DNA of 64,000 nucleotides from a virus. Below the pieces are notes generated by a model. The model did not search any database. It worked only from the letters and a program-made list of their open reading frames with translations, and was not told the origin of the DNA. This document shows, in pieces, positions 12,163 through 59,000 of the stretch (positions are counted from its first letter, which is position 1; every line of letters starts with the position of its first letter). Where the stretch lies: positions 64,001 to 128,000 of the IMG/VR virus record IMGVR_UViG_3300025162_000016; one strand, 5' to 3'. Position numbers and translations under genes: made by a program.

Positions 12163-12735
12163 ATGAAATTAAGTCACTGGGCGAAAGAAAAAGGAATACT
12201 TTACCGAACAGCATGGTTGATGTTTAATCGTGGACAATTAACAGGAGCATATAAATTACCTACTGGAACAATTATTATTCCAAATGAAATCAATAAAATT
12301 AAGGAAGAATATATTATTACTTATGCCAGGGTATCTTCTTCTGAAAATAAAGATAATCTCGAAACACAATCTAAAAGATTAATTGATTATTGTAATGCTA
12401 ATGGATGGAAAACTCATGAAAATATAAAAGAAATTGGAAGTGGATTGAATGATAAACGTCCCAAATTAATTAAAATTATAAATGACGGTAAGGCGTCAAT
12501 CATAGTGGTTGAACATAAAGATAGATTAAGTAGGTTTGGGTCTTCTTATATTGAATTGGCATGTAAACATTTTAACTGTAAAGTTATTTATATAAATAAT
12601 ATTCGAGAAGAAAAAGAAGATTTAGTACAAGATTTCGTAAATATTATAACTTCATTTTGTGCTAGAATATATGGTCAACGAAGAAGTAAACGAAAAACCG
12701 AACAACTAATCAAAGAACTGGAAACATCCAAATGA
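12163..12735 (+). CDS. tnpA: IS607-type serine recombinase (TnpA)
   Basis: It catalyses excision and integration of the element through a phosphoserine intermediate. The start ATG at 12163 (MKLSHWAKEKGILYRTAW) begins the N-terminal MerR-like helix-turn-helix that is diagnostic for IS607 recombinases. The catalytic domain follows: YIITYARVSSSENKDNLETQ, in which one Ser of ARVSS is the likely nucleophile, then EIGSGLNDKRPKLIKII and VVEHKDRLSRFG (conserved Arg). The C-terminal part is short and basic. At 190 residues it is of normal length and looks intact. It is translationally coupled to tnpB by an ATGA overlap. Confidence 0.92.
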   Translation: MKLSHWAKEKGILYRTAWLMFNRGQLTGAYKLPTGTIIIPNEINKIKEEYIITYARVSSSENKDNLETQSKRLIDYCNANGWKTHENIKEIGSGLNDKRPKLIKIINDGKASIIVVEHKDRLSRFGSSYIELACKHFNCKVIYINNIREEKEDLVQDFVNIITSFCARIYGQRRSKRKTEQLIKELETSK

Positions 12736-36510: not shown

Positions 36511-37686
36511 ATGGATAATATACTTTCAGATCAAGATAGCATCAGATTTACCGGCAGTGGTTCTAATCCTGCTGGTAACACTCCTTATGGTTTTTACGAC
36601 AACGACGCAATTTTCCTTACGGAATGTTATAGAGGAATGTTATGGGCATCTAGAAAATTGGGTTATCCGATAACCGACATTGAAATGATTGACATTAATT
36701 TCTACGCCTGTTATGAAGAGGCAGTCAATGAATACGGTAAAGAAGTAAATCAATTTAATATTGTTAACAACATGCTCGTGTTTCAAGGTCAAAATCTTGA
36801 AACTTTAGGTAGTGTAAATGGCAGGAACGTTCAAGGAACCGGTCTTAGTCAAATGATTATGTTGGCGAAGGATTATGGTTCGGAAACCGGTGCTGGTGGT
36901 AGAGTAGATTGGAAACGAGGTTATATCCAAGTTAATGCGGGTATACAAGACTACGATCTTCAGGCATTATGGGGAGATGCTAAAGAAAGCTGTAACAAAA
37001 TGGAAATAAAACGTATATTCCATGACCGACCCCCTGCCTCGGCTCGAATTTATGACCCATTTTCGATGACAGGAATGAGTTATAGTAATGTTTTGACTGA
37101 GCTAGGATTTGGGGCATATTCTCCGGCTGTTCAATTTTTAATGACCCCAATTTTCGAAGATTTGCTTCGGATGCAATCGATTGAATTTAACGATATGGTA
37201 CGTAAATCGGCATATAGTTTTGAGATTGTAAATAATAAAGTAAGGGTATTTCCCATTCCGACATATAGCTATAAGATGTGGTTTGAATATATTCTTGAAA
37301 AAGATAGATTAGAGAGTTTATTATCGGCATCTGGGTCGAATGTAGTATCTGATTACTCGAATGTTCCGTATGTTATGCCTATATATTCCAAGATTAATGA
37401 ACCTGGGAGACAATGGATACGCAATTATTTTCTGGCCTGTTGTAAAGAGACTTTAGGACAAATTCGTTCAAAGTATCAGACTATTCCTATTCCGAATGGA
37501 GAAACTACTCTTAACGGTCCGGAGTTGATTCAGGCGGCACAAACTGAGAAAGAATCACTATTAGAGAATTTGAGATTAATGCTTGAGCAATCGGGGAAAT
37601 TTTATCAATTGGAAAAACAATCTGAATTAACCGAACAAATTAATAATACATTAAAGGGAGTTCCTTTGTATATTTACGTGGGATGA
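36511..37686 (+). CDS. Putative neck / head-tail connector protein (391 aa)
   Basis: This conserved virion-type protein starts MDNILSDQDSIRFTGSGSNP. Landmarks are YGFYDNDAIFLTECYRGMLWASRKLGYPI, DINFYACYEEAVNEYGKEVNQ, GGRVDWKRGYIQVNAGIQDYDLQ and EIKRIFHDRPPASARIYDPF. The FYACYEEAVNEY segment is typical of adaptor-like proteins. The size and position, ahead of a gp14-like gene, suggest the gp13 (neck) role of T4-like phages. I base this on arrangement and recollection of similar proteins, not on a decisive motif. Its 3' end overlaps a leftward endonuclease gene by 13 bases. Confidence 0.68.
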   Translation: MDNILSDQDSIRFTGSGSNPAGNTPYGFYDNDAIFLTECYRGMLWASRKLGYPITDIEMIDINFYACYEEAVNEYGKEVNQFNIVNNMLVFQGQNLETLGSVNGRNVQGTGLSQMIMLAKDYGSETGAGGRVDWKRGYIQVNAGIQDYDLQALWGDAKESCNKMEIKRIFHDRPPASARIYDPFSMTGMSYSNVLTELGFGAYSPAVQFLMTPIFEDLLRMQSIEFNDMVRKSAYSFEIVNNKVRVFPIPTYSYKMWFEYILEKDRLESLLSASGSNVVSDYSNVPYVMPIYSKINEPGRQWIRNYFLACCKETLGQIRSKYQTIPIPNGETTLNGPELIQAAQTEKESLLENLRLMLEQSGKFYQLEKQSELTEQINNTLKGVPLYIYVG

Positions 37687-39185
37687 AAGTTTAACTGATA
37701 TTTTGTACACCCGCAATCCCAGATTCTATCCCATCCGTTATTTTTCATATTTTCCCATTCAGAAAGAGCGGGGTTAAAATTTGGGAGTCTATTGGACAGA
37801 GAGTTCTTTTTAAATCCGTATCGATGATATCTTTTAGAGTGATCTTTAGTATAGAAATAATTGGGATTAGTTTCCAATATTTTTGAAAATCCCATTTTGG
37901 AATATATTTCCCCGGTTCCCCATCTTCTATCGGAATAGGAGATAATTTTTTCAGGGGAATAGTTTTTGATAAAGTAATTTAATAATTTTCCAAATCCACC
38001 TATCACGGAGCGATTTATTTTCGAACAGAATCTGTACATTTCCCAATGATTATTTACGGGAACTGATCCAAGAGATTTTCTTAATTTTCCAAATGTCATT
38101 ACAGATATCAACTCATTTTTATAATACAAACCGAGTTTTATTAAGGATGCATCTGATCCTTGCAGGTGATTTTCATTGAGAAATAAATTAGAGTCTACAC
38201 CGGGCACTATTTTAGTTTCACATTTTCTGGCATATATTTTTACGGGAGATGTTTTGAGTATGGATTGCAATCTACTTTTTACAATTTGTTCTTTGAATCT
38301 CCATTCATCTTCAAATATATGGATAAGCCGGATTCCTTTGGTTTGACATTGCAATGTTTTATCGAGATGATATTTCTTTGAAATTCCTCCAGTTAATTGA
38401 CTATGATAGTATAATCCATCAAATTCTATTCCTAATTTATGAGAAGGAATGTAAATATCTATTTCTTTACCGGACAAAATGGTTCTATCATTTTCCTTTA
38501 CATCTATTACATTTAAAGTGGTTTTAATATAATCTATAATATCTTTTTGGCATTTTGAAATATAGTTTGGAAAACAAATTGGACATCGAGGTATATGTCC
38601 ATCTTGGAGATGATTATGAAACAAACTTTTACATAATTTACATTCGAATTTATATGTTAATTCGACCCCCAAGTATTCTTCTTTTGAAAATAATGGGGTG
38701 ACATTTTTATATCTTACATCGGTAAAAAATCTCTCATAATTCTCTTGTAGAATATTTGACCGAATTTCTTTAGATTGAATTGGATAATCGGTTCCATATT
38801 TTTTACGATTGGTTTCTTTTATTTGTTGTTTGCATTTATCCAATTTTAGATTACAATCTTCCCCATAATGTTTTAAGCAAGTTTCTTTCTTTTTCTCTTT
38901 TATGAGAGGAGATATTGATGGATTTTTTACTCCATAAGTTTTTAAACAACTGGCTTCTTTTTTCTGTTTAACATTGGTGGAATTATTGGAACATTTGCGA
39001 GAGCAATACGATCTAAAACCGGAGAATATATCATTTAAAACGGTAATATTTCCGCATTGGATGCAGTTTCCGACATTGATTATTTCCGGATGAATCCATT
39101 TATACAATTTCTCTTTAAAGGAATTTCCGGAAAAGTTAGTTAGAATGGACGAATAACATTCGGGATAATCTCGGCGAATAATCAT
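37674..39185 (-). CDS. Putative homing endonuclease, KYGV-repeat family (503 aa)
   Basis: This is the third copy of the family at 8598 and 23932. It begins MIIRRDYPECYSSILTNFSG, with finger-like CIQCGNITVLND...YCSRKC, fewer KYGV-type repeats (LKTYGVKNPSIS, LKHYGEDCNLK, RKKYGTDYPIQS), a CKLCKSLFHNHL...CPIC ribbon, the nuclease-like KEIDIYIPSHKLGIEFDG, then YYHSQ, and the C-terminal IYARKC, NHLQGSD, VMTFGKLR, SYSDRRWG and WDRIWDCG. It separates two neck genes and is transcribed against them. The frame is intact. Confidence 0.8.
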   Translation of the reverse strand: MIIRRDYPECYSSILTNFSGNSFKEKLYKWIHPEIINVGNCIQCGNITVLNDIFSGFRSYCSRKCSNNSTNVKQKKEASCLKTYGVKNPSISPLIKEKKKETCLKHYGEDCNLKLDKCKQQIKETNRKKYGTDYPIQSKEIRSNILQENYERFFTDVRYKNVTPLFSKEEYLGVELTYKFECKLCKSLFHNHLQDGHIPRCPICFPNYISKCQKDIIDYIKTTLNVIDVKENDRTILSGKEIDIYIPSHKLGIEFDGLYYHSQLTGGISKKYHLDKTLQCQTKGIRLIHIFEDEWRFKEQIVKSRLQSILKTSPVKIYARKCETKIVPGVDSNLFLNENHLQGSDASLIKLGLYYKNELISVMTFGKLRKSLGSVPVNNHWEMYRFCSKINRSVIGGFGKLLNYFIKNYSPEKIISYSDRRWGTGEIYSKMGFSKILETNPNYFYTKDHSKRYHRYGFKKNSLSNRLPNFNPALSEWENMKNNGWDRIWDCGCTKYQLNFHPT

Positions 39186-42328: not shown

Positions 42329-42442
42329 ATGCCAACAATCAAATTACGAAGTAATATTACGGGGCTATGTACCTTATATAGCAAAAATGAATTTGTAAAT
42401 ACATCACTTAAAAACATCACTGTTAGTGGGAGGTATCTATGA
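42329..42442 (+). CDS. Possible tiny gene coupled to the giant fibre gene (37 aa)
   Basis: An ATG frame encodes MPTIKLRSNITGLCTLYSKN and ends TVSGRYL, with a TGA overlapping the ATG of the 2375-residue fibre gene (ATGA). The start resembles that of small phage fibre-region proteins (MPTI.L). The GGGAGG just before the fibre start lies inside it, so it may act as a leader for coupled translation. Support is modest, given its size. Confidence 0.45.
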   Translation: MPTIKLRSNITGLCTLYSKNEFVNTSLKNITVSGRYL

Positions 42443-45400
42443 GCCACGAATTTGTAGCAAAACGTGGATTAATTTCCCGAGGTGATGTACAAGTTACTGG
42501 TTCGTTAACCGCCACCGGCGTTATTTTCGGACATCATACTGGTTCTACTTTTGGAACGGCTTCTTGGGCAACTAATTCTTTAACCACGTCTTATGCAGAC
42601 TCATTAACTGTTAACAATGATTTAACAGTTGGCGGCATATTACGAGCCGGACAAATTAGTAGTAGTTTTATATATATCACCTCAAGTTATATTGTAGTAA
42701 CTGATAACATACTTACATTAAATGCACAAACTCCTCATGTAAGATACGCCGGGATTGAAGTATGGGATTCGGGTTCTACCGATCAAATGGCGAGTGTTTT
42801 ATGGGATGGCGAGAATAATTACTTCTTTATTTCATCCAGCGATGCGGGATATAGTAAAAAGATTATATTGGGACCGAGTGGTGAAGTAGATTTAACCGTC
42901 GGTAAAATACCTGTAGTAACTACAGGCGATAGTATTGGTGATAGTATAATACAACAAATTGGATCGGAAATCAATATTACGGGCAATTTAGTAGCTACGT
43001 CGGTAACTGCATCATTGATGGGGACGGCATCAAATGCTATTAGTGCGTCCTATGTTCCTAATTTATATCCACAAATTATACAAACCACCGTTGATTCTGC
43101 ATCGTGGGTGAGTGCTTCGGTATTTATCACTACTGCACAAACCGCTTCTTATATCACTTCCAGTAATATTTTTGGTAAGGTAACCGCCTTTAGTTCTTCA
43201 TGGGCAAGTGCTTCGGTTAGTGCATCCTATGTTCCGAATTTATATCCACAAACATATCAAGAATCTGGTTCATGGGCATCTTCATCGATTAGTGCCAGTT
43301 ATTTATTTGGACCTCATACTGGTTCGACATTTGGAACTGCAAGTTGGGCATTATCATCTTCGACTGCGATCAGTGCATCTTATTCGCCAGTAGAACCCGA
43401 TTATAGTTCATCGGTATCGTTACAAATAGATACTAAACAGAACAACATTGTTACCGGTTCAACCTTACCGATAACTGCAAGCTGGGCTAACTATATTTCT
43501 TCCAGCAATATAATTGGTAATGTTACCGCATTTTCTGCTTCGTGGGCGAGTGCTTCAATTAGTGCTTCCTACGTTCCTAATTTATATCCGCAGACGTATC
43601 AGGAGTCGGGGTCATGGGCCAGTGCTTCATTAAGTGCAAGTTATTCTCCGGTTCAACCGAGTTACAGTGCAAGTATTTCCGATCAATTTGCGACTAAACA
43701 AGATACATTAGTAATTGGCAATACTTATTCAATAACAAGTAGTTGGGCAAACGATGCTATTACGGCATCATATATTTCTTCCAGTAATATTTTTGGTAGT
43801 ATTACCGCATTAAGTTCTTCGTGGGCATCTTCCAGTATTTCATCATCTTACGTTCCCAATTTATATCCACAGGTTATACAAACCACCGTTGATTCTGCAT
43901 CATGGGTAAGTGCTTCGGTATTTATTACAACGGCACAGACTGCTTCGTATGTATCTTCCAGCAATGTTATAGGAATAATAACCGCATTTTCTTCCTCTTG
44001 GGCGAGTGCGTCGATCAGTGCTTCCTATGTTCCTAATTTATATCCTCAGACATATCAAGAGTCTGGTTCATGGGCATCATCCAGTATTTCGTCATCGTAT
44101 GCTACATCAGCATCTTACGTTCCCAATTTATATCCACAAGTTACACAAACAACAGTTGATTCGGCGTCATGGGTAAGTGCGTCGGTATTTATTACTACTG
44201 CACAAACCGCTTCTTATATTACGGCCAGTAATATATTTGGAACGGTAACGAGTTCATCGTATGCTTTAAGTGCGTCTTGGTCACCGCAACCGGCAATACC
44301 GACATCAGTTCCTTCCTCTTCATGGGCATCATCCAGTATTTCGGCGTCATATGCATTAACAGCGAGTTTTGCTTTAAATGCATCAGCACTTACATCGGCA
44401 AGTTGGGCAAGTAGTTCTTTAAGTGCATCATATCTTAATGCGGGGGCGAATATATATCTTTCGCAATCATATATTTTTGCTAATACCAATTCAATTGTAC
44501 CGTCATTTAAACCGGGACAATTATGGTATGATTCATTAACTCATACGTATGCGATTGATACTGATAAAACGGATGTTCGTCTTCAGATAGGACAGGAAAA
44601 TTATGTTAGAATTGTGGCGGGAGAATTAATTGCGAATGGAAACGCTGTTTATATTAGCGGGTCGAATATAAACAAACTTCCGATTGCATACCTTGCGATT
44701 GCAGATGGAACGGGATTGAAAAATCTAGTAGTTGGTTTATCAACTCAACCACTAACAATAGGAGAAGAAGGGTTTGCCACTACAGTAGGAGTTGTTAATA
44801 ATATTAACACATCTACCCTAATTGACGGCGATGTATTGTATTTATCTGACGTTACTTCTGGTTCCTTTACAAATATTATACCATTATTTCCTGCTGAAAA
44901 AGTAATTGTTGGAACGGTTTTATATTCTGGAATATCCGGAAAGATTTTAGTAGATTTGAGTCAACACACTCCTCGGGAAGATTTCAGTGTTGGGGTAATA
45001 GATATTCCTACGTTATCTAATATTGGCAGTACGATTTATATTGGGGCATCTAAAGTTAATTTCTGTATTAATTTATCCGGAAAAGGTATTATACGTTCAT
45101 TTACAGTTCCCTCCGCATCATTTACGATTACAACGGCGTTTTTGGATGTTCAATATATTCTTGCGAATTATAATAATGGCAATCCGATTTATCAGATTGC
45201 GACGGATATGTCAACGGTAGATAACATTCAAACTGTTCCGGTAGCCACATTTACATTGGGGTCGGGTGGAAATTTTTCTTATGTAGATTGGGACTCTTCC
45301 GGATTATTATTAAGCAACAAACTTGAACGTCGTATTATTGATATTTATGGTGCTCAACGAGCAAGTGGATTAGAAATAGGAACCAGCGGTTCTCATATTA

Positions 45401-48400
45401 CTATTACATCCGGAACGGGATATCTTGGAGTTAAGCAATTAACATTTACTAGTTCAAGTACTGCCAATACAAATCAATTTGCATTAGTAGCACATTCCGC
45501 ATCGATTTGGTCGGGATCTTTTATTAATGGGTATGTAACTACTCATTATGATGATGGCATCAATTTACGAACTCTTGGATCGGGTAAATATGTTGTAAAT
45601 TATGTTTATCGTGGAATTGGATCACTCAATCGATCTCAGGTATTGTTGAGCCCGCAATATGTCAATTACGGGGATGCGGTCAAGGCAATAATGCCTATTC
45701 CACCGGCTGAATTATCGAGCATTTCTATTTTTTGTGGACGCATAATAACACAAGAAGGAGATGGGGCATTATTGGTTGAGAGTGCATTTACAACTATTCT
45801 TTCGGTGGCGGGTATTACTGATCACAATTTATTAAATAATATACAAGGTGGAACACCGGGTCAATATTATCATTTATCATCGGCAAGTTACGCTCAGATG
45901 ATAAATGGGACTGCAAGTTATGCATATACTGCTAGTTATATATCTTCCAGTAATATATTCGGGAATATAACTGCATTTAGTGCTTCGTGGGCATCGGCTA
46001 GTATTTCGGCATCTTATGTTCCTAATTTATATCCACAGACATATCAAGTGTCTGGTTCGTGGGCATCATCATCGATTAGTTCGAGTTATTTATTTGGTTC
46101 ACATACCGGCTCTACTTTTGGTACGGCGAGTTATGCATATACTGCTAGTTATATATCTTCAAGTAATATATTTGGTAATGTAACCGCATTCAGTGCTTCG
46201 TGGGCATCGGCCAGTATTTCGGCGTCATATGTTCCTAATTTATATCCGCAAACTTTTCAAGCATCGGGGAGTTGGGCAAGCAGCTCTTTAAGTGCAAGTT
46301 GGGCACAATCTGCATCAATTGCATCAACAGCTAGTTATGTATCTTTCAGCAATATTTTTGGTAATGTAACTGCATTTTCCGCATCATGGGCATCGGCTAG
46401 TATTTCTTCATCGTATACTTTAAAATCATATTGGAATGATATTACTAAAGAGCCATCTGGATTTCCAAACCGGACAGATTCCACTCTTAGTTATGACAGT
46501 GCTTCGGTTAAATTAATGATATCGGGATCGAACTGGAAGGTTTATTGTAATGGCAATGAATTTATTAAAAATAATGAATCCATTGTTATTTCTACACCGA
46601 CCAAAGGACAGTTATATTATATTTATTATGATACGAATGGGGTATTACAACAAGCAGTAAGTGAATGGAGTTTTGTATCTGGAATTGCTTCCGTTTGCAC
46701 GGTATATATTGGGGCAGGGGCGGGTAATGGATTTGTTTCGGATGAACGGCATGGGGTTTTAATGGACGGGATGACCCATGAATATTTGCATGAGACAATG
46801 GGGCCGAGGTATGCTTCTGGATTTGCGTGGACGACAACGACAGCTTCGCTTGGAAAATATGCAATATCAGCGGGGGAATGGTATGATGATGATCTTGAAT
46901 TTAAGACTACCACTATTTTAAGTAGCAGTTTGATGGCATATTATTCGGGAGCGATGGTAGTATCTACAACGGAGACGAGTTCGATGTATGGGGGAGGAAC
47001 TGAAAAATATAATAACACTACATTAGGTACATTGGTAAATATTACGGGGGGTAATGCTGGGTGTTTCTTCATATATGCTATTAATGGGATTAGCAACAAT
47101 TTAGTATCGATATATGGGCAGAGGATTGACACTAGTGTTGCGAATGCTCGGACGAACAATACACCGGACACTTTAATATTTGGTAATTTCCCATTTCGGG
47201 AGGCGAAGTTATTATATCGTGTAATTGTGACGACGGCGGGTATTTCCGAGACCACGGATTACCGAACCGCACAATATGCTGGGTCTACATTTACACCTAC
47301 GTCACATGGATCGTTGACTGGGTTAAGTAATGATGATCATCCGCAATATCTTTTATTAGCGGGTAGAGATGGGCAAGCGGCGGCTACGTTTACGGGATCT
47401 ATAGTTGGCAGTTCTTCATATGCGACGAGTGCTTCGTATGTTCCGAATTTATATCCACAGACATATCAAGTATCGGGGAGTTGGGCAAGTAGTTCTTTAA
47501 GTGCGAGTTATATATCTTCCAGCAATATTTTTGGTAATGTAACTGCTTTCTCTGCTTCGTGGGCATCTTCTTCAATTAGTGCATCCTATGCTCCGGTTCA
47601 ACCATCATACAGTGCGAGTATTTCTACACAATTCGGAACTAAACAAGATACCCTTGTAACTGGTAATACTTATTTTATTACATCCAGTTGGTCGATAAGT
47701 TCAAGTTATGCACCAAATCTTTATCCACAAACTTATCAGATAAGTGGAAGTTGGGCATCTGCTTCAATAAGTGCATCCTATGCAACGATGGCTGGAACAG
47801 CGAATGCGATTTCCTTTGTTCCTCTAACATCGACTAGTGCCTCTTGGGTATCTGCTTCCGTTTTTATTACAACCGCACAGACTGCATCTTATATTACATC
47901 TAGTAATATTGTAGGAATAATAACTGCTATCAGTGCAAGTTGGTCAAGTGCCTCAATTAGTGCATCATATGCACCGGTTCAACCAAGTTATTCTTCCAGT
48001 GTATCCACTCAATTTGGAACCAAACAGGATACTCTTGTAACTGGAACCACTTATTTCATTACATCAAGTTGGTCACTTAATTCAATAACTACATCTTATA
48101 TTACGTCGAGTAATATTGTGGGAATAATAACTGCATTTAGTTCTTCTTGGGCTAGTTCTTCAATCAGTGCTAGTTACGTTCCCAATTTATATCCTCAGAC
48201 AGAACAAACATCCGCTTCGTGGGCTTCTAGTTCGATTAGTGCAAGTTATTTATTTGGACCGCATACGGGATCGACTTTTGGAACTTCAAGTTGGTCACTT
48301 AATTCAATAACTACTAGTTATATTACTTCCAGTAATATTGTGGGAATAATAACTGCATTTTCTGCCTCTTGGGCATCTTCTTCATTGAGTGCTTCATATG

Positions 48401-49566
48401 TTCCTAATTTATACCCACAAACAGAACAGATATCATCAAGTTGGGCTAGTGCATCTATAAGTGCAAGTTATTTATTTGGACCGCATACAGGATCTACTTT
48501 TGGAACATCTTCTTGGTCTAACAATTCCGTAACTGCATCTTATATTACTTCAAGTAATATTTTCGGTAATGTTACCGCATTTAGTTCATCTTGGTCAAGT
48601 GCATCAATTAGTGCTTCATATGCAATAAGTGCTAGCATCGCTAATGCAATTTCTTTTGTTCCTATTGCTAGTGTAAGTGCATCATGGGTAAGTGCATCTG
48701 TATTTATTACAACTGCACAAACTGCATCTCATATTACATCCAGCAATATTTTTGGAATTGTAACTAGTGCTTCTTACAGTTTCTCATCCTCGTATTCATT
48801 AACATCTAGTTATTTGAGTAGTTCAGTTATGGGAAATGGTGTATATAATATCGTATATCTCAATAGTGCAAGTTATGCCGCATTAAATCCTCCTGTATCA
48901 ACTACAATTTATGCGGTAATGTCCGAAAACTTTCGAGTTACAGAAATTGATGATTTAAGAATTACAGAAGATGGTGATATAAGAATTACACAATTAGGAA
49001 ATATTGTATTATATTTAGGATTGAATCCGATTTCAAGTGGTGAGAATATTATATCTTGTTCGTGGGCATCTTCTTCAATTAGTTCCAGTTATTTATTTGG
49101 ACCACATACAGGATCAACTTTCGGAACGGCATCTTGGGCAGTGAGTGCATCTTGGGCTGGTAATATTGCTGCTTCTGGATTTCCAACGATAATAGCATCA
49201 GGAAATTATAATACATATCCACAAGGAACAGATGTAATTATTATGACAGAATTAGCAACTATATCTAATACTGGGTTGTATAGAATATCTGATACTTGTA
49301 ATACTTATTTAACTTCTGCCGCCGCCATTTACTTCACTCGTAGTGTTGTTTGGTCGGATGAGACAAATACTAGACGTACTAGAAATTCAATCCAGTTTCC
49401 TACTTATGCCATTGGTGAGAGACCAGGTTTTTATGGTAATTGGGCCAATGATGTTTTTACTTTATCTATATTAACCGGAACTAAAGTATCTATAACAGAA
49501 AGTTATACTTGTAACGTACAAACAGATGCCTTTCATAGTAAGATTGCATTGGAAAGATTATTTTAA
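42439..49566 (+). CDS. Giant Ser/Ala-rich tail fibre protein (2375 aa)
   Basis: This is a very long virion surface protein. It starts after a strong GGGAGG ribosome site. An N-terminal module (LTVGGILRAGQISSSFIYITSSY...DQMASVLWDGENNYFFISSSDAGY) is duplicated in the second giant gene at about 59635-59930. Most of the rest is repeats such as SASWASASISASYVPNLYPQ, TASYISSSNIFGNVTAF and YLFGPHTGSTFGTASWA. Non-repeat domains are inserted at about residues 690-1150, about 1340-1640 and at the C-terminus (GFPTIIASGNYNTYPQG...). The repeats probably form a long thin trimeric shaft. No transmembrane segment is present. Host binding is likely but not directly shown. Confidence 0.85.
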   Translation: MSHEFVAKRGLISRGDVQVTGSLTATGVIFGHHTGSTFGTASWATNSLTTSYADSLTVNNDLTVGGILRAGQISSSFIYITSSYIVVTDNILTLNAQTPHVRYAGIEVWDSGSTDQMASVLWDGENNYFFISSSDAGYSKKIILGPSGEVDLTVGKIPVVTTGDSIGDSIIQQIGSEINITGNLVATSVTASLMGTASNAISASYVPNLYPQIIQTTVDSASWVSASVFITTAQTASYITSSNIFGKVTAFSSSWASASVSASYVPNLYPQTYQESGSWASSSISASYLFGPHTGSTFGTASWALSSSTAISASYSPVEPDYSSSVSLQIDTKQNNIVTGSTLPITASWANYISSSNIIGNVTAFSASWASASISASYVPNLYPQTYQESGSWASASLSASYSPVQPSYSASISDQFATKQDTLVIGNTYSITSSWANDAITASYISSSNIFGSITALSSSWASSSISSSYVPNLYPQVIQTTVDSASWVSASVFITTAQTASYVSSSNVIGIITAFSSSWASASISASYVPNLYPQTYQESGSWASSSISSSYATSASYVPNLYPQVTQTTVDSASWVSASVFITTAQTASYITASNIFGTVTSSSYALSASWSPQPAIPTSVPSSSWASSSISASYALTASFALNASALTSASWASSSLSASYLNAGANIYLSQSYIFANTNSIVPSFKPGQLWYDSLTHTYAIDTDKTDVRLQIGQENYVRIVAGELIANGNAVYISGSNINKLPIAYLAIADGTGLKNLVVGLSTQPLTIGEEGFATTVGVVNNINTSTLIDGDVLYLSDVTSGSFTNIIPLFPAEKVIVGTVLYSGISGKILVDLSQHTPREDFSVGVIDIPTLSNIGSTIYIGASKVNFCINLSGKGIIRSFTVPSASFTITTAFLDVQYILANYNNGNPIYQIATDMSTVDNIQTVPVATFTLGSGGNFSYVDWDSSGLLLSNKLERRIIDIYGAQRASGLEIGTSGSHITITSGTGYLGVKQLTFTSSSTANTNQFALVAHSASIWSGSFINGYVTTHYDDGINLRTLGSGKYVVNYVYRGIGSLNRSQVLLSPQYVNYGDAVKAIMPIPPAELSSISIFCGRIITQEGDGALLVESAFTTILSVAGITDHNLLNNIQGGTPGQYYHLSSASYAQMINGTASYAYTASYISSSNIFGNITAFSASWASASISASYVPNLYPQTYQVSGSWASSSISSSYLFGSHTGSTFGTASYAYTASYISSSNIFGNVTAFSASWASASISASYVPNLYPQTFQASGSWASSSLSASWAQSASIASTASYVSFSNIFGNVTAFSASWASASISSSYTLKSYWNDITKEPSGFPNRTDSTLSYDSASVKLMISGSNWKVYCNGNEFIKNNESIVISTPTKGQLYYIYYDTNGVLQQAVSEWSFVSGIASVCTVYIGAGAGNGFVSDERHGVLMDGMTHEYLHETMGPRYASGFAWTTTTASLGKYAISAGEWYDDDLEFKTTTILSSSLMAYYSGAMVVSTTETSSMYGGGTEKYNNTTLGTLVNITGGNAGCFFIYAINGISNNLVSIYGQRIDTSVANARTNNTPDTLIFGNFPFREAKLLYRVIVTTAGISETTDYRTAQYAGSTFTPTSHGSLTGLSNDDHPQYLLLAGRDGQAAATFTGSIVGSSSYATSASYVPNLYPQTYQVSGSWASSSLSASYISSSNIFGNVTAFSASWASSSISASYAPVQPSYSASISTQFGTKQDTLVTGNTYFITSSWSISSSYAPNLYPQTYQISGSWASASISASYATMAGTANAISFVPLTSTSASWVSASVFITTAQTASYITSSNIVGIITAISASWSSASISASYAPVQPSYSSSVSTQFGTKQDTLVTGTTYFITSSWSLNSITTSYITSSNIVGIITAFSSSWASSSISASYVPNLYPQTEQTSASWASSSISASYLFGPHTGSTFGTSSWSLNSITTSYITSSNIVGIITAFSASWASSSLSASYVPNLYPQTEQISSSWASASISASYLFGPHTGSTFGTSSWSNNSVTASYITSSNIFGNVTAFSSSWSSASISASYAISASIANAISFVPIASVSASWVSASVFITTAQTASHITSSNIFGIVTSASYSFSSSYSLTSSYLSSSVMGNGVYNIVYLNSASYAALNPPVSTTIYAVMSENFRVTEIDDLRITEDGDIRITQLGNIVLYLGLNPISSGENIISCSWASSSISSSYLFGPHTGSTFGTASWAVSASWAGNIAASGFPTIIASGNYNTYPQGTDVIIMTELATISNTGLYRISDTCNTYLTSAAAIYFTRSVVWSDETNTRRTRNSIQFPTYAIGERPGFYGNWANDVFTLSILTGTKVSITESYTCNVQTDAFHSKIALERLF

Positions 49567-49637: not shown

Positions 49638-51035
49638 ATGTCAAATACACGAATAAGCAATTTAAATGCCGCTGGAACAATCACTGGAACCGAATTGATT
49701 GAATTAGTCCAAACCGGTACGTCAGTATATTCTACAATCAATAGTATAGCATCTACTACCACCGCCAGTTTATTGGGCGGTAATCCAAATGAATGGTTTA
49801 TAAAAGATGATATAACTCTGCCAGCTTTTGCTACCACTAATTCACAATCAATGGTCGTTAATAGTAATTTATTAATTTATATAAATAACAAACCGTATAC
49901 ATTTACTAGTGCTAGTAGCACCATTATAATGCCCGCTCTAATGCTCGCTGGAAATGATTATGGTATCTATGCTACTACCGCAAGTACTTTAATCGCTACC
50001 TATACCAATACCAGTTCCATTGAGTTAGGTGGTTATACTGCTCCTGCTGGATACGATGCCACTAACTCCAGATTAGTCGGCGGCTTCTACTTCGCTCATT
50101 CTGGCAGTGCCCCACTGTCAATGATCAGTAGATCTAGATCTGCAGGCGGTGCTGCAGCCTCCGCTTCAATCTCTATGAGTAGTGCTGCTCATGGTTTAGT
50201 TACTGGTGACTATATTGATGTAATATTGATGACCGATTTAACTTATAATACCACAAATATTCCCATCACCGCAAGTGGAACAAATATTATATTCCCAAGT
50301 TCAGGAACATCCGAAACATATGTCGGTGACACTGCCGGTAAAGTATACAAAATAAATAATCGGGGCATCATTAATCAATATAGTATCTGGGATCTAAAAT
50401 TCAAACCAAAATGCCCAGATCCCCGTGGTATGATATTAGTTAATGATTCCTTCTGGGTTGATATCTGGCTAACTGGTAATAACTATCTAACCAGTGGAAC
50501 CAGCAGAAAAGGTGAGAGAATTGCGGATGGTCAAGGCGGTGTATCGTATCCTCTAATTTCAACAAAAATGGGCGGAAATGGTACATCTAGATACGCAAAC
50601 TGCACTTGGTTCACCTCAAATGAAGTACTTGCTCACTGGGGAAAGAAACTTCTGAGTTATGCTGATTTCTGTGTTGCTGCTTTCAATGGAACAACAGAGA
50701 ATGGATCATATGGAACAGATAATCAGTATACCTGTAGACCTCCTGGTGCAATGTATACCAGCAAATGGGGAATGGAGCAATCCTATGGAATCATGTGGAT
50801 ATGGGGTGCAGATTTGAATTTTTATTCGGGAACAATTAACTATGATTGGCAGAATACTACTGAAGGCAGAGGTTATATGTACACAACATCCACAGGAACG
50901 ATTGCAGGTATATACGGCGGCAGTTGGAATGATGGTGTTGCTGGCTCTCGTAGTTCTTATTGGCATGATTATGTTTGGGATAGCAACTACAGTATTGGGC
51001 TGCGTGGTCGTTGTGATCATCTTGTTGTTCCGTAA
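49638..51035 (+). CDS. DGR target protein 1 (variable tail protein, 465 aa)
   Basis: This is a tail protein whose C-terminal ligand-binding surface is diversified by the retroelement. The N-terminal ISNLNAAGTITGTELIELVQTG is a common phage fibre attachment-type start. The C-terminal half (KCPDPRGMILVNDSFWVDIWLTG...WGKKLLSYADFCVAAF...GSRSSYW...IGLRGRCDHLVVP) has the layout of C-type-lectin (formylglycine-generating-enzyme-like) DGR target domains. The variable repeat covers residues 426-458, at the extreme C-terminus as usual. From about 50334 the DNA looks identical to target 2 except in the variable repeat. Their N-terminal halves differ. It probably serves as receptor-binding tip. Confidence 0.9.
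   Translation: MSNTRISNLNAAGTITGTELIELVQTGTSVYSTINSIASTTTASLLGGNPNEWFIKDDITLPAFATTNSQSMVVNSNLLIYINNKPYTFTSASSTIIMPALMLAGNDYGIYATTASTLIATYTNTSSIELGGYTAPAGYDATNSRLVGGFYFAHSGSAPLSMISRSRSAGGAAASASISMSSAAHGLVTGDYIDVILMTDLTYNTTNIPITASGTNIIFPSSGTSETYVGDTAGKVYKINNRGIINQYSIWDLKFKPKCPDPRGMILVNDSFWVDIWLTGNNYLTSGTSRKGERIADGQGGVSYPLISTKMGGNGTSRYANCTWFTSNEVLAHWGKKLLSYADFCVAAFNGTTENGSYGTDNQYTCRPPGAMYTSKWGMEQSYGIMWIWGADLNFYSGTINYDWQNTTEGRGYMYTTSTGTIAGIYGGSWNDGVAGSRSSYWHDYVWDSNYSIGLRGRCDHLVVP
50913..51011 (+). repeat. DGR variable repeat VR1 (99 bp)
   Basis: It aligns to the template repeat at 52921-53022 with 11 substitutions by my count, all at template adenines, plus a three-base in-frame deletion (the ninth template codon, AAT). 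It ends in the invariant GGGCTGCGTGGTCGT, the likely initiation-of-homology segment. Confidence 0.93.
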
Positions 51036-51065
51036 CGGAGCGGAAGCGAAGTGGGAGGAACAACA
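51023..51065 (+). promoter_or_regulatory. Conserved hairpin element downstream of VR1
   Basis: The 9-bp arms TGTTGTTCC (51023-51031) and GGAACAACA (51057-51065) flank the stop codon region, with a smaller TCCG-TAA-CGGA hairpin inside. The block is repeated exactly after VR2. In other DGRs, hairpins just downstream of the variable repeat help target recognition. Confidence 0.65.
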
Positions 51066-51119
51066 GTAGCATTTCTGGTAGTATAGAAGAAAAATTTGGT
51101 ATAAATAAAAATAAATAAT

Positions 51120-52499
51120 ATGGCAACGAAAAAAATAAGTGAATTAAATGTAGCTGGTACTATTGGTGGTAATGAGATGGTGGAATTGGTACAGAGTGGA
51201 TTATCTGTACGATCTACAGTTAGTAATATAATAATTACTGCCAGTGTAGTGAACGGTAATACCAACAATTTTTTTGTTAAATTAAATTATAAAACGCCAG
51301 CATTTGCTACTAATAATTCTCAATCAATGGTGGTAAATAGTAATTTATTAATCTATGTAAATAATACCCCGCACAATTTTGCCAGCGGCTCTTCTATCAC
51401 CATGCCCGCCACTATGCTCGCCGGAAATGACTACGGTATCTATGCCACCATCGATAATACCCTGATAGCTACGTATACCACTCCCAGTTCCGTGACTCTC
51501 GGAGGTTATACCGCTCCTGCTGGATATAATGCCACTAACTCCAGATTAGTCGGTGGCTTCTACTTTGCCCATTATGATAGCTCACCGCTCTCAATTCTCG
51601 GAAGATCTAGATCGTCTGGTAATTCTTCAATCTCTATGAGCAATGCTGTTCATGGTTTAGTTACTGGTGACTATATTGATGTAATCCTAATGACCGATCT
51701 AACTTATAATATCGTAAATGTTCAAATTACTGTGAGCGGTACCACTATAACTTTCCCAAATCCAGGATCAAATGAATCATATACCGCAGATACCGCCGGT
51801 AAAGTATACAAAATAAATAATCGGGGCATCATTAATCAATATAGTATCTGGGATCTAAAATTCAAACCAAAATGCCCAGATCCCCGTGGTATGATATTAG
51901 TTAATGATTCCTTCTGGGTTGATATCTGGCTAACTGGTAATAACTATCTAACCAGTGGAACCAGCAGAAAAGGTGAGAGAATTGCGGATGGTCAAGGCGG
52001 TGTATCGTATCCTCTAATTTCAACAAAAATGGGCGGAAATGGTACATCTAGATACGCAAACTGCACTTGGTTCACCTCAAATGAAGTACTTGCTCACTGG
52101 GGAAAGAAACTTCTGAGTTATGCTGATTTCTGTGTTGCTGCTTTCAATGGAACAACAGAGAATGGATCATATGGAACAGATAATCAGTATACCTGTAGAC
52201 CTCCTGGTGCAATGTATACCAGCAAATGGGGAATGGAGCAATCCTATGGAATCATGTGGATATGGGGTGCAGATTTGAATTTTTATTCGGGAACAATTAA
52301 CTATGATTGGCAGAATACTACTGAAGGCAGAGGTTATATGTACACAACATCCACAGGAACGATTGCAGGTATATACGGCGGCGGTTGGACTGATGGTGGT
52401 GTTGCTGGCTCTCGTAGTTCTTATTGGTATGATTATGTTTGGGATAGCAACTACAGTATTGGGCTGCGTGGTCGTTGTGATCATCTTGTTGTTCCGTAA
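51120..52499 (+). CDS. DGR target protein 2 (variable tail protein, 459 aa)
   Basis: This is a tandem paralogue of target 1. It starts MATKKISELNVAGTIGGNEM, and its N-terminal 225 residues are similar but diverged. From about 51795 the DNA appears identical to target 1 up to the variable repeat, implying recent duplication or gene conversion. The C-terminal lectin-like domain has the same GSRSSYW and IGLRGRCDHLVVP frame. The variable repeat spans residues 419-452. It has one more residue than target 1 in the loop (GWTDGGVAG against SWNDGVAG). TATAAATA occurs at 51100-51107, a short distance before the start. It sits next to the Avd gene. Confidence 0.9.
   Translation: MATKKISELNVAGTIGGNEMVELVQSGLSVRSTVSNIIITASVVNGNTNNFFVKLNYKTPAFATNNSQSMVVNSNLLIYVNNTPHNFASGSSITMPATMLAGNDYGIYATIDNTLIATYTTPSSVTLGGYTAPAGYNATNSRLVGGFYFAHYDSSPLSILGRSRSSGNSSISMSNAVHGLVTGDYIDVILMTDLTYNIVNVQITVSGTTITFPNPGSNESYTADTAGKVYKINNRGIINQYSIWDLKFKPKCPDPRGMILVNDSFWVDIWLTGNNYLTSGTSRKGERIADGQGGVSYPLISTKMGGNGTSRYANCTWFTSNEVLAHWGKKLLSYADFCVAAFNGTTENGSYGTDNQYTCRPPGAMYTSKWGMEQSYGIMWIWGADLNFYSGTINYDWQNTTEGRGYMYTTSTGTIAGIYGGGWTDGGVAGSRSSYWYDYVWDSNYSIGLRGRCDHLVVP
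52374..52475 (+). repeat. DGR variable repeat VR2 (102 bp)
   Basis: It is full length relative to the template repeat. By my count 15 of 30 template adenines are changed, and no other position in 102 bp differs. The ends match the template exactly (GGGCTGCGTGGTCGT on the 3' side). Confidence 0.95.
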
Positions 52500-52529
52500 C
52501 GGAGCGGAAGCGAAGTGGGAGGAACAACA
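52487..52529 (+). promoter_or_regulatory. Conserved hairpin element downstream of VR2
   Basis: This is the same element as at 51023-51065: TGTTGTTCC ... GGAACAACA arms around the stop codon, with an inner TCCG-TAA-CGGA hairpin. Sequence identity with the VR1 copy runs from the end of the VR through about 52531. Confidence 0.65.
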
Positions 52530-52551
52530 GTGGCATTTTTTGTGATTTATT

Positions 52552-52902
52552 ATGGATGAAAATATAAAACAACTTGAAATTATTGAAAAATACGAAGAAT
52601 TTGTTAATTATATTTATCCAATTTGTATAAATATTCCTAAAGGTGGGCATGTAACATTGAGGAATAAGATGACCGAATGTATATTTAACCAAGTGGAATT
52701 ATTTGTACAAGCGAAAAAATCTAATCAAATATCAAAACTTTACTTAGCAGATGCGGGATTGGCTCTGTTGAGATTTTATTTACGGTTTCTGGTTCACCCA
52801 AACCGAAAACTTATAAGCAACAATCAACATAAAGTAGCAACATTGCATTTGTGTGAGGTTGAGAATATGTTAAAGGAATGGATAAAAACTATGAAGCCGT
52901 GA
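52552..52902 (+). CDS. avd: Accessory variability determinant (Avd-like, 116 aa)
   Basis: This is a small helical-bundle protein that partners the DGR reverse transcriptase and template RNA. Landmarks are IIEKYEEFVNYIYPICINIPK, TLRNKMTECIFNQVELFVQAKK, YLADAGLALLRFYLRFLVH and HLCEVENMLKEWIKTMKP. These correspond to the four helices of Avd proteins, with conserved basic residues that bind nucleic acid. Its position between the target genes and the template repeat is standard. No clear ribosome site precedes it. It appears intact. Confidence 0.88.
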   Translation: MDENIKQLEIIEKYEEFVNYIYPICINIPKGGHVTLRNKMTECIFNQVELFVQAKKSNQISKLYLADAGLALLRFYLRFLVHPNRKLISNNQHKVATLHLCEVENMLKEWIKTMKP

Positions 52903-52920
52903 TGGGTTGATTGTGTAAAA

Positions 52921-53022
52921 AACGGCGGCAATTGGAATAATGGTAATATTGCTGGCTCTCGTAGTTCTAATTGGAATAATTATGTTTGGAATAACAACAA
53001 CAATATTGGGCTGCGTGGTCGT
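52921..53022 (+). repeat. DGR template repeat TR (102 bp, non-coding)
   Basis: AAC/AAT-rich sequence here is homologous to VR1 and VR2. It contains 30 adenines by my count, concentrated in AAY triplets at variable codons. Adenine-specific mutagenesis of such triplets can give many residues without stops. It lies 18 bases after avd and 194 bases before the reverse transcriptase. It does not lie in a convincing reading frame. Confidence 0.95.
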
Positions 53023-53090
53023 TTTGTGACGATACGATGTATTTTTGGAATTTTTTGTTTCTATATGATTACGGTTATATAGACAAGACC

Positions 53091-53120
53091 AATAATTATG
53101 TTTGAGAAATAACAACAAAT
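53091..53120 (+). repeat. Possible relic of a second template repeat
   Basis: AATAATTATGTTTGAGAAATAACAACAAAT resembles the template segment AATAATTATGTTTGGAATAACAACAACAAT with small indels. It keeps AAT/AAC triplets unlike either variable repeat. It may be a duplicated or decayed template. Alternatively, it may be part of the structured spacer RNA. Confidence 0.45.
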
Positions 53121-53162
53121 GGTCAGCATAATCATCCTGCGATAAGCAAACAAATAACGGGC

Positions 53163-53209
53163 AAATTGTGGTGAATAGTAGAGGGTGAACTCAAATTTCA
53201 CCACAATTT
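53163..53209 (+). promoter_or_regulatory. Long hairpin between template repeat and reverse transcriptase
   Basis: A perfect 13-bp inverted repeat (AAATTGTGGTGAA at 53163-53175, TTCACCACAATTT at 53197-53209) with a 21-base loop ends seven bases before the RT start. T-rich sequence follows, so it could terminate or attenuate template RNA. It could also be a structure needed for priming. Confidence 0.75.
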
Positions 53210-53216
53210 ATTTTCT

Positions 53217-54215
53217 ATGGGTAAAAAATATAAAAATCTAATACATTTGGTGGTAGATGACGATAATTTACGTAAAGCATATGAACAAGCAAGAAAAAAC
53301 AAACGATATAAGAGAGGGGTGTTAATATTCAAGGAAAGATTGGAATATAATTTACAACAGATCAAAAAAGAGATTTTAGAAAAAACATATAAAATTGGTG
53401 CATATAAAGATTTTACGATATATTATCCAAAAGAAAGAAAAATCTCGGCTCTACCATTCAAAGATAGAGTAGTTCAACATGCATTATGTAATATTATAGA
53501 ACCTATATTTGATAGATATATGTTTTCCTGTAGTTATGCTTGTAGGAAAGGAAAAGGAACGCACCGATGCATGATGAAAGCAAGGGATATAATCCGTGCG
53601 GTACCAAAAAATAAACCATTGTTCTTTCTAAAAATGGACTTTAGAAAATTCTTCCCTTCCATAAACAAAGAAATATTATATAAAGAAATAAATCGAAAAA
53701 TAAAAGATAAACATATCATGTGGTTATTACATCAAATAATACCACCTATTGGAAATGGGCTTCCTATCGGTAATCTAACCAGTCAATTATTTGCCAATGT
53801 TTACGGAACTATTTTCGACAGATATATAAAACAATTTCTGCGAGTAAAACATTATGTCAGATATATGGATGACACCGTTATTATATCCACCGATAAAGCA
53901 TATCTTATATCAACTCTCCAAAAAATAACGTGGTTTATAAAAAATATATTAAAATTAGAATTCTCCAAATGGTACATAGAAAATATTAAAAAAGGACTTA
54001 ATTTCGTGGGTTATAGAATATTTAGATCTCACATTCTTATCAGAAAATCGTCAGTGGTTAGATGTAAAAGAAAAATTCAATCCTATTTATACCACGAGAA
54101 GTACAAAGAATTGTACAGATCGCTAATAAGTTGGAGTGGACATATTAAATGGTCAAACTCATACAATTTAGGACAACATATAGAAAGACAAATACAATTA
54201 TGGCAAATGAATTAG
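53217..54215 (+). CDS. DGR reverse transcriptase (332 aa)
   Basis: It copies the template RNA into adenine-mutagenised cDNA that replaces the variable repeat. Landmarks are ALPFKDRVVQHALCNIIEPIFDRYM (RT region 1-2), FLKMDFRKFFPSI with Asp about residue 141, GLPIGNLTSQLFANVYG (residues 181-197; the DGR-type form of the motif that is QGxxxSP in retroviral enzymes), and the catalytic RYMDDTVII (YMDD at 216-219). The thumb-like C-terminal part ends HIKWSNSYNLGQHIERQIQ. Length is normal for the group. No intron maturase or endonuclease domain is present. Start codon 53217 has no ribosome site and follows a strong hairpin, hinting at control of RT expression. The end overlaps the next gene by 16 bases. 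Confidence 0.95.
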   Translation: MGKKYKNLIHLVVDDDNLRKAYEQARKNKRYKRGVLIFKERLEYNLQQIKKEILEKTYKIGAYKDFTIYYPKERKISALPFKDRVVQHALCNIIEPIFDRYMFSCSYACRKGKGTHRCMMKARDIIRAVPKNKPLFFLKMDFRKFFPSINKEILYKEINRKIKDKHIMWLLHQIIPPIGNGLPIGNLTSQLFANVYGTIFDRYIKQFLRVKHYVRYMDDTVIISTDKAYLISTLQKITWFIKNILKLEFSKWYIENIKKGLNFVGYRIFRSHILIRKSSVVRCKRKIQSYLYHEKYKELYRSLISWSGHIKWSNSYNLGQHIERQIQLWQMN

Positions 54216-54496
54216 GAAATATTACAACGTACAACCTTTTGAAATCAGAAGGTGAATTATGGCAATCCGCCGCAATAGCAGCAATGAAAGCTGCGGTAAA
54301 CATAAAAAATGAAAGTCCAGAAACGCAAAGACATACCGAAAGAATGCAATGGGCAGGTAATGTATTATCAAATCCGGATACTTGGGTAACCGCTCATAGA
54401 TGGGATATCATACAAAATCCTACTATCGCAACTAATGGACATACTTCAACTGATAGTGATATCGAATATGTCGTGGCTGGATTGGTGCCGGTATAA
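54200..54496 (+). CDS. Hypothetical small virion-region protein (98 aa)
   Basis: The start ATG at 54200 (MANELGNITTYNLLKSEGELW) is preferred over one 51 bases upstream inside the RT gene. The protein is short and soluble, with QSAAIAAMKAAVNIKNESPETQRHTERMQWAGNVLSNPDTWV and a C-terminal DSDIEYVVAGLVPV. I do not recognise the family. The middle looks like two helices suitable for a small capsomer or tail-tube-associated protein. It overlaps the RT end by 16 bases, so the retroelement is embedded in the tail operon. Confidence 0.65.
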   Translation: MANELGNITTYNLLKSEGELWQSAAIAAMKAAVNIKNESPETQRHTERMQWAGNVLSNPDTWVTAHRWDIIQNPTIATNGHTSTDSDIEYVVAGLVPV

Positions 54497-56008: not shown

Positions 56009-59000
56009 ATGCCAATCCCGATTTCAACTTTTTTCGAGTTAAGTACCGAATTACCCATTGATAATAGAATTGTTGCGGCTAATATCTCTATAAGAAATGC
56101 GATCACAGATACATGGAGATTTGAAGGATTGCATTGTTATGTAGTCGATGAACAAATAAATTATCAATTACAAGGCGGTATTTTAAATACCGATTGGGTT
56201 GTTTTAAATGCAGGTGGAACTGCGGAATCCGCATCATGGGCTAGCAGTTCTTTAAGTTCAAGTTATTTATTAGGATCACATACCGGTTCTACTTTCGGTA
56301 CAGCAAGTTGGGCAGTATCCGCTTCATGGTCTCCTGCTCAACCATCTTCAACGGCAGAATCCGCATCATGGGCTAGTTCATCTATCAGCGCCAGTTATTT
56401 ATTCGGTCCACATACCGGTTCTACTTTTGGTACTGCAAGTTGGGCAGTATCGGCTTCGTGGTCTCCTAGTCAACCATTTTCAACAGCAGAATCGGCATCA
56501 TGGGCAAGTAGTTCTTTAAGTTCAAGTTATTTATTTGGTCCACATACCGGTTCTACTTTTGGAACCGCATCATGGGCACTTAATTCGTTAACGGCTAGTT
56601 ATATTTCTTCCAGTAATATCACCGGCGATATTACTGCGTTTAGCGCCTCATGGGCATCGAGTTCAATTAGCGCATCATATGCATTATCTTCATCCTGGAC
56701 AATTAATGCGAGTACTGCAAGTAATTCTTTAACGGCGTCATATCTTACTCCTGAAAATAATTACACCGTTCATAATTTAGATATTACTAATAATCTTACG
56801 AATGGAACGGGATCAATTGCAAACAGTCTTGTTTCTCATGCGGAAGGTTATTTTACAATTGCAAATGGGTATGCATCTCATGCGGAAGGAGATTCTACTA
56901 CAACCATCGGGATATCTTCTCATGCGGAAGGCGAATCTGCCACTGCAACCGGTAATTTTTCTCATGCCGAAGGTAAAACCACCAATGCAATTGGAAATTA
57001 TTCCCATGCAGAAGGTCAAAACACACAAGCATATAAAGATTATTCTCATGCCGAAGGTTATGGCACATGGGCAAGCCAAATATATTCTCATGCGGAAGGC
57101 AATTCTACCGTAGCAATTGGAACCGGTTCGCATGCCGAGGGCGACGTTACAACTGCGGCTGGAAATTTTTCTCATACCGAAGGAGATTCTACTACTGCAA
57201 ACACAAACCATTCTCATGCGGAAGGTTCATTTACTATTACGAATGGAGTGGCGTCTCATGCCGAAGGAGAATCTACAACTACAGATGGACATTATTCCCA
57301 TGCCGAAGGTGGTTCTACAAAAACATTCGGACCGTATTCCCATGCGGAAGGTTATAATACAATTGCACGGTCATGGGGGTCTCATGCCGAGGGTGCTTTT
57401 ACGATGGTGTCTGAAATTAGTGACGGAGCACATGCGGAAGGACTAGAAACAACTGCATCGGGACAAAGTTCTCATGCGGAAGGATTTGGTTCAGTTACAA
57501 CCACAAATTTTTCTCATGCCGAGGGCGATCATACTACTGCGAATGGCCAAAGCTCTCATACAGAGGGTAAAAATACAATAGCAAATGGAAAGAGTTCCCA
57601 TGCCGAAGGTTATTTTACAATTGCCACCAATGATTTTTCCCATGCGGAAGGTATGAACACGGAGGCATATGAAGAGGGTTCTCATGCGGAAGGAGGCGGT
57701 ACATCTACACTGGGAGTTGGTTCTCATGCGGAAGGCGCTTCCACAACTGCAACTGGACATTATTCTCATGCGGAAGGTGATACTACATATGCAAATGGAG
57801 CGGCTTCTCATGCGGAAGGTGGATCTACATTCGCAAATGGAGTTAGTTCTCATGCGGAAGGTTATTATACAACTGCAATTGGAGATTATTCCCATGCGGA
57901 AGGTGGATCTACATTCGCAAATGGAAATTATTCTCATGCAGAAGGTTATAGTACAACTGCAACTGGAGAATTTTCTCATGCGGGAGGTAATAATACAGTA
58001 GCATACGCTAATTATCAAACAGTCGTAGGACGATTTAATATTGCTAATAACAGCACCGATTTATTTGTAGTTGGCGGTGGTGCAAATGATGCAAACAGAA
58101 AAGACATATTAAAAGTATCTACCACCGGTGTTATTGTAAATGGTGGCGTCACTTCTTCATTATTTGGAACCGCATCATGGGCACTTAATTGTTTAACTGC
58201 GAGTTATACTTCTGCCAGCAATATTACCGGAAACATTACCGCCTTTAGTTCTTCCTGGGCATCAAGTTCATTGAGTTCTTCCTACGCCTTATCCGCCTCT
58301 TATGCATTATCGGCATCGTATGCATTAACAAGTAGTTACGCCAATTCAGCTTCTTATGCATTATCTTCATCTTATGCATTAACTGCGAGTTATATTTCCA
58401 GTGCATTTGCGATCGTAGGAACAGCATCTTATGCTTATAATGCGGGGACGGCATCATGGGCATGGAATTTAATTGGAGGATTACCGTCAATAGAATCGGC
58501 CTCTTGGGCATCATCGAGTTTATATTCTATTGGAGCAATTTATGCATCCAGTTCAATTAGTTCCAGTTGGGCATCCTCATCGATTAGTTCGAGTTATTTA
58601 TTTGGATCACATACCGGCTCTACATTTGGAACTGCAAGCTGGGCATTTAATGCTTTAACGGCTAGTTATATTTCTTCCAGTAATATTGCCGGAAATGTTA
58701 CCGCATTCAGTGCGAGTTGGGCATCTGCTAGTATTTCCGCAAGTTATTTAAATGGATCACACACTGGTTCTACCTTTGGGACTGCAAGTTGGGCAGTATC
58801 CGCTTCATGGGTAAGTGCCTCTACATTTATTACAACAGCACAAACAGCTTCATATGTATCTTCCAGTAATATTTTCGGTAATATAACTGCATTTAGTGCA
58901 TCTTGGGCATCATCTAGTATATCATCCAGTTATTTATTTGGACCGCACACTGGTTCAACATTTGGTACATCGTCTTGGGCAATTAATGCTACTACTGCAT

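Follow-up and report, generated by a model that had tools for sequence, protein, structure and literature searches.

A BPP-1-type diversity-generating retroelement with two tandem Mtd targets in a jumbo T4-type phage

The stretch of 64,000 nucleotides analysed here (the window; positions 64001-128000 of a 368,758-bp virus record) almost certainly harbours a diversity-generating retroelement (DGR) of the BPP-1 type belonging to a jumbo T4-type phage. Bordetella phage BPP-1 alters its host-binding protein by this type of mutation machine. The components lie on the plus strand in the order mtd1 with its variable repeat (VR1), mtd2 with VR2, avd (accessory variability determinant), the template repeat (TR), the spacer RNA (Sp) and the reverse transcriptase (RT), with all reading frames intact. 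Every part claimed by an earlier sequence-only reading (a YMDD reverse transcriptase, an Avd-like protein, a 102-bp TR and two tail genes carrying variable repeats) has been recovered. The anatomy of the DGR, the confinement of changes to adenines, the homology of each part and an identity block common to the two targets are established at the level of sequence. The DGR appears complete and most likely functional, and is a genuine yet ordinary representative of a well-studied class. Neither a second RT nor an additional VR above noise has been detected in the 368,758-bp record, and scans for promoters and terminators returned site numbers no higher than in shuffled sequences. The ORF after the RT (54149-54496) was considered as a counterpart of BPP-1 bbp4, and no homology was found.

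Template and variable repeats

A repeat search recovered a three-copy family starting at 50911, 52375 and 52922. The last copy is the TR, with a 102-bp core (52922-53023) containing 29 adenines, while the others are VR1 (50914-51012) and VR2 (52375-52476), located at the 3' ends of mtd1 and mtd2. In the gapped alignment, TR 52922-53026 pairs with VR2 52375-52479 without gaps and with VR1 50914-51015 with one 3-nt gap. Against the TR core, VR1 is changed at 10 of the 27 compared adenines and at 0 of 72 other positions (P 5.4e-7, hypergeometric), and VR2 at 14 of 29 adenines and 0 of 73 other positions (P 1.3e-9, hypergeometric). Scoring of the alignment by template base, as had been proposed, thus places 10/10 and 14/14 substitutions at A and 0 at C, G or T. 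When the VR2 register is extended (TR 52918-53023), 16/16 substitutions fall at adenines. The adenines are replaced most often by G, followed by T and C. The sequence-only reading was right about the adenine-only pattern, but its counts of 11 (VR1) and 15 (VR2) become 10 and 14 over the 102-bp core, probably owing to an upstream edge set slightly further out. Nine of the adenine-site changes are exactly common to VR1 and VR2.

VR1 is one codon (3 nt) shorter than the TR and VR2, a deletion absent from the earlier reading. Loss of this codon would be in line with slippage on the template by multiples of three, as given for AAC repeats (PMC12875486), but could just as well reflect a later slip in GGTGGT. 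The first mismatch at a non-adenine position (T103 to G) marks the 3' limit of TR/VR homology, and the IMH/IMH* feature is a 20-nt TR/VR identity at the 3' end (TATTGGGCTGCGTGGTCGTT), with divergence beyond it.

Elsewhere in the record, the TR occurs only as VR1, VR2 and a 28-nt fragment. A search of IMG/VR for population variants of the VRs or TR with the A-to-N pattern yielded only a near-identical contig (L012), which is identical over 7,953 bp from 52260 (covering VR2, avd, TR and RT) and may share a sample with the window record. Among ten relatives, 119 of 120 TR/VR differences fall at A. In the relatives L013 and L014, the VRs differ at TR adenines only, within the 32 nt that are comparable. 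The TRs of these two contigs (L013 2236-2337 and L014 470-571) are identical at 102/102 positions, while avd is 87% and the RT 82% identical; such identity despite avd and RT DNA being 13-18% apart indicates either strong conservation or a recent exchange of the TR.

The two Mtd targets and their common block

Both targets are homologous to the receptor-binding tail protein Mtd, which the sequence-only reading had missed along with the 734-bp block that they have in common. The first, mtd1 (49638-51035, 465 aa), matches Pfam mtd_2nd at 40.5 bits and tail protein family phrog_11262 at E 2.5e-72, while mtd2 (51120-52499, 459 aa) matches the solved BPP-1-family Mtd structure 1yu2 at E 1.4e-53 (phmmer) and BPP-1 mtd at 37.5% identity (tblastn; about 37% for both targets). 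Both match the Mtd second domain (with a target match over the cut-off of model PF21916), the tail-protein family and, over the lectin domain, Mtd crystal structures. The two proteins are 84% identical to each other, and each VR ends at most 8 codons from the stop of its target. Since an AlphaFold2 model of mtd2 built from four sequences was uninformative (pLDDT 29), the C-type-lectin fold of the target rests on homology.

The positions open to variation correspond to those of BPP-1. Residues were paired by the ungapped phmmer alignment with BPP-1 Mtd, in which the window residue minus 78 gives the BPP-1 residue. The AAC/ATC codons of the BPP-1 TR, at Mtd residues 344, 346, 347, 350, 357, 359, 360, 364, 366, 368 and 369, align in 11/11 cases with adenine-bearing TR codons here (422, 424, 425, 428, 435, 437, 438, 442, 444, 446 and 447), and variation therefore falls on the lectin-domain face that BPP-1 also varies.

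The block common to mtd1 and mtd2 (50334-51067, with its copy at 51795-52531) shows zero differences outside the VR. Within it, 3 substitutions and 1 codon indel are all located in the VR, and the substitutions all lie at TR-adenine sites (P about 4e-4 and 6e-5 for confinement to the VR and to TR-adenine sites or a codon indel). Upstream of 50334 the two genes diverge strongly, their N-terminal halves having about 68% protein identity. Retrohoming exchanges nothing but the VR, so identity over the 590 bp upstream of it calls for ordinary recombination, either by gene conversion or by partial duplication in the recent past. The block suggests that the mtd paralogues underwent gene conversion, followed by fresh adenine mutagenesis, since differences found only inside the VR imply that mutagenesis postdates homogenisation; the nine changes common to VR1 and VR2 would be expected if the block was copied along with its VR. 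The VR differences that appear to have arisen after this event are the best sequence evidence of recent DGR activity.

These observations bear on whether the DGR is decayed or inactive, with its parts kept and its VRs frozen as relics, which we consider improbable. The sole near-identical contig does have an unchanged VR2, the majority of VR substitutions are common to VR1 and VR2, and Sp and the hairpin are weak in scoring against the BPP-1 model. Nevertheless, the frames and the YMDD motif are intact, conservation of the TR (97/102 to L014) exceeds that of the RT (82.6%) or avd (87%) DNA, and the recently homogenised block differs solely at TR-adenine sites apart from the codon indel.

That the double target is an artefact, one mtd having been duplicated by the assembler, is less probable still. 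The long identical block common to both copies would suit such an error, as would the ends of five contigs (L012, L014, L015, L092 and L094) in the corresponding part of the target, where assemblers stall; these ends are consistent with near-identical copies breaking assemblies. Assembly from short reads, if that is how the record was made, could account in part for the exact sharing of the C-terminal block. Against duplication by the assembler stand the N-terminal halves, only about 68% identical as protein, the difference between VR1 and VR2, and the 82.9-kb contig L092, which independently carries two tandem mtd genes, with a target 72% identical to that of the window. In that contig, the two genes agree with each other at 94% in their C-terminal part but with those of the window at 87% across the same 103 residues; for the N-terminal parts the corresponding figures are 75% and 70-75%. 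Such a signature of concerted evolution suggests, on a short comparison stretch, that the pair is old.

The double target had been put forward as the novelty of this system, a claim that proves weak. DGRs with several VRs make up about 28.6% of those in one survey (PMC6642488), and therefore doubling by itself is not new. Unusual here are an Mtd-type target within a jumbo phage, concerted evolution between the paired genes and a candidate target hairpin with G-A mismatches. As a speculative proposal that we hold to be rather doubtful, the Mtd pair may be coupled, the DGR diversifying either VR and recombination copying a successful C-terminal domain across, with a hairpin of this clade using conserved tandem G-A mismatches instead of a Watson-Crick stem. 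If so, the phage would explore new receptors with a working copy retained. Tandem targets with a common block allow the interplay of mutagenic homing and ordinary recombination on one receptor-binding repertoire to be addressed.

Enzymes, template RNA and target-site hairpin

The RT (53217-54215, 332 aa) contains the YMDD and GNLTSQ motifs, belongs to phrog_1423 (E 4e-110) and matches BPP-1 Brt (PDB 8ub7) with 281.6 bits and 43% identity (phmmer). The next class is that of group II/retron-type enzymes, at below 60 bits. A class search of the kind recommended by the sequence-only reading thus favours a DGR enzyme. An RT from a retron, group II intron or defence (DRT/Abi) system, with the TR/VR likeness as an incidental duplication, can be dismissed: the generic RT and several DRT models of PADLOC do match, as they would for any RT, but the enzyme scores 281 bits to Brt versus 58 to group II intron RTs and lies under the NCBIfam cut-offs for group II RTs, retron St85 and Drt proteins, and 24/24 changes at adenines, not expected from incidental duplication, already refute this origin. 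The accessory protein Avd (52552-52902, 116 aa) is assigned by bAvd (97.4 bits, cut-off 40), NF033474 (91.9 bits, cut-off 80; the NCBIfam DivGenRetAVD model), PF22296 (also above cut-off) and phrog_3206, and is 45% identical to BPP-1 Bbp7/Avd.

The spacer part of the template RNA (Sp, 53027-53216) matches the Rfam family Phage_DGR with 26.2 bits, under the gathering score of 50. RNAalifold on 15 Sp sequences yielded only 6 pairs, the sequences being too divergent for a consensus fold. Nevertheless, the octamer TGGTCAGC (53120-53127) is invariant in an alignment of 15 DGR spacers, BPP-1 included. A56 of the BPP-1 spacer, the adenosine that primes cDNA synthesis, lies inside this octamer; its exact counterpart here, and the predicted priming site, is 53125. 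Priming of cDNA synthesis by an internal spacer adenosine has been described (PMC12875486). Apart from the octamer, a 28-nt fragment of Sp (53091-53118) resembles TR positions 54-79 (E 9e-4 by BLAST against the whole record; p 0.005 in the window and 0.02-0.065 in three homologues) and is weakly kept in L013, L014 and L015. Its candidacy as a functional second template found weak support, as it is absent from more distant DGRs, and the fragment is left unexplained.

A candidate hairpin, folded as DNA, lies 3' of each VR. At VR1 (51023-51065), the outer stem is formed by 51023-51031 and 51057-51065 around a GGAA loop at 51042-51045; at VR2 (52487-52529), by 52487-52495 and 52521-52529 around a loop at 52506-52509. 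The 9-bp outer stem (TGTTGTTCC/GGAACAACA) surrounds a short inner stem that bears tandem G-A mismatches and is capped by the GGAA loop; z-scores of -1.8 and -1.5 put the fold only modestly ahead of shuffled controls. In 11 of 53 DGR loci (the window, L015, L017, L018, L019, L021, L029, L030, L032, L039 and L092), a GAxy-GRNA-y'x'GA motif lies no more than about 60 nt from the VR end, versus 0.00125 expected per stretch; these are not 11 independent events, because the loci are related, although RT identity among them falls as low as 42%. At 14 other loci, BPP-1 among them, plain Watson-Crick stems with GRNA loops are found. According to PMC3240598, the hairpin that BPP-1 requires 3' of the VR combines a GC-rich stem with a GRNA loop; no description of the G-A form was found in the consulted passages of that paper or in a further literature search. 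The G-A hairpin is thus put forward as a lead, a candidate target-site element.

In the favoured reading, a transcript spanning avd, TR and Sp would serve as template, on which the RT and Avd would initiate cDNA at the predicted Sp adenosine. The TR would then be copied into cDNA with its adenines misread, and by homing the cDNA would take the place of the 3'-terminal VR of either mtd gene; the common 3' end GGGCTGCGTGGTCGTT, and probably also the hairpin just 3' of it, would guide this step. As an outcome, two tail-tip proteins, both presumed to act in binding, would acquire a C-lectin domain whose receptor-binding face is altered. Homologous recombination between the mtd copies would also swap the C-terminal block, so that a VR selected in one copy could pass to the other and mutate anew.

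Host phage and known systems

The description of the phage as T4-like holds at the level of capsid and portal: the major capsid protein is of the gp23 type (PF07068, E 5e-58; phrog_138), the portal of the gp20 type (phrog_213) and the protease matches phrog_207. The nearest capsids, at about 52%, belong to a Microcystis phage, to Flavobacterium phages and to an uncultured phage of 484 kb. A search of 50,697 phage records recovered Mtd homologues in 13 only, all of about 30-43 kb, and a review of jumbo phages did not find such lectin domains (PMC7824862). A tropism-switching cassette of the BPP-1 type that targets Mtd itself is now placed in a 368-kb T4-type phage.

Directly upstream of mtd1, a protein of 2,375 residues (42439-49566) is composed of repeats such as ASASISASYVPNLYPQ and is almost unmatched in named phages; it is probably a tail fibre and could carry the Mtd proteins. 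Another fibre-like gene contains short tandem repeats (56791-58018), with SHAEG-like units resembling trimeric adhesin head repeats. Furthermore, three large ORFs of the same homing-endonuclease families (phrog_3339/phrog_559; 8598-10292, 23932-25605 and 37674-39185) are dispersed among the structural genes, and a transposase-like ORF (12732-13946, phrog_506) is flanked by head genes.

Among uncultivated relatives, the IMG/VR contigs L013, L014, L015 and L092 carry the same cassette or paired mtd genes (RT 82-84%, target 72% identical). They are fragments, and the target of L013 has an extra insertion of about 100 residues. Compared by the Mtd gene, Synechococcus phages S-CBS1 and S-CBS3 and Marinomonas phage P12026 have an Mtd-type tail protein (34% over the C-terminal half) in small genomes, unlike the window phage. 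Multi-target DGRs of Treponema denticola, Stenotrophomonas and the gut phages nd4 and nd12 (with tentaclins) combine one TR with at least two VRs, as here (PMC6642488, PMC10743442); however, nd4 and nd12 diversify two unrelated target proteins, whereas here the two targets are paralogues in tandem whose C-terminal block has been homogenised.

For the RT, Avd and the targets, BPP-1 is the nearest among named phages and solved structures. The two systems have in common the order and orientation mtd-avd-TR-brt, the Mtd target, the variable positions and the predicted Sp priming motif, with identities of 43% (RT), 45% (Avd) and 37.5% (Mtd). They differ in that the window carries two tandem mtd genes with a longer N-terminal region against one in BPP-1, a TR of 102 bp against 134 bp as annotated, and a candidate downstream hairpin with G-A mismatches against a perfect GC-rich stem, and in that the DGR described here resides in a low-GC jumbo T4-type phage instead of a 42-kb phage.
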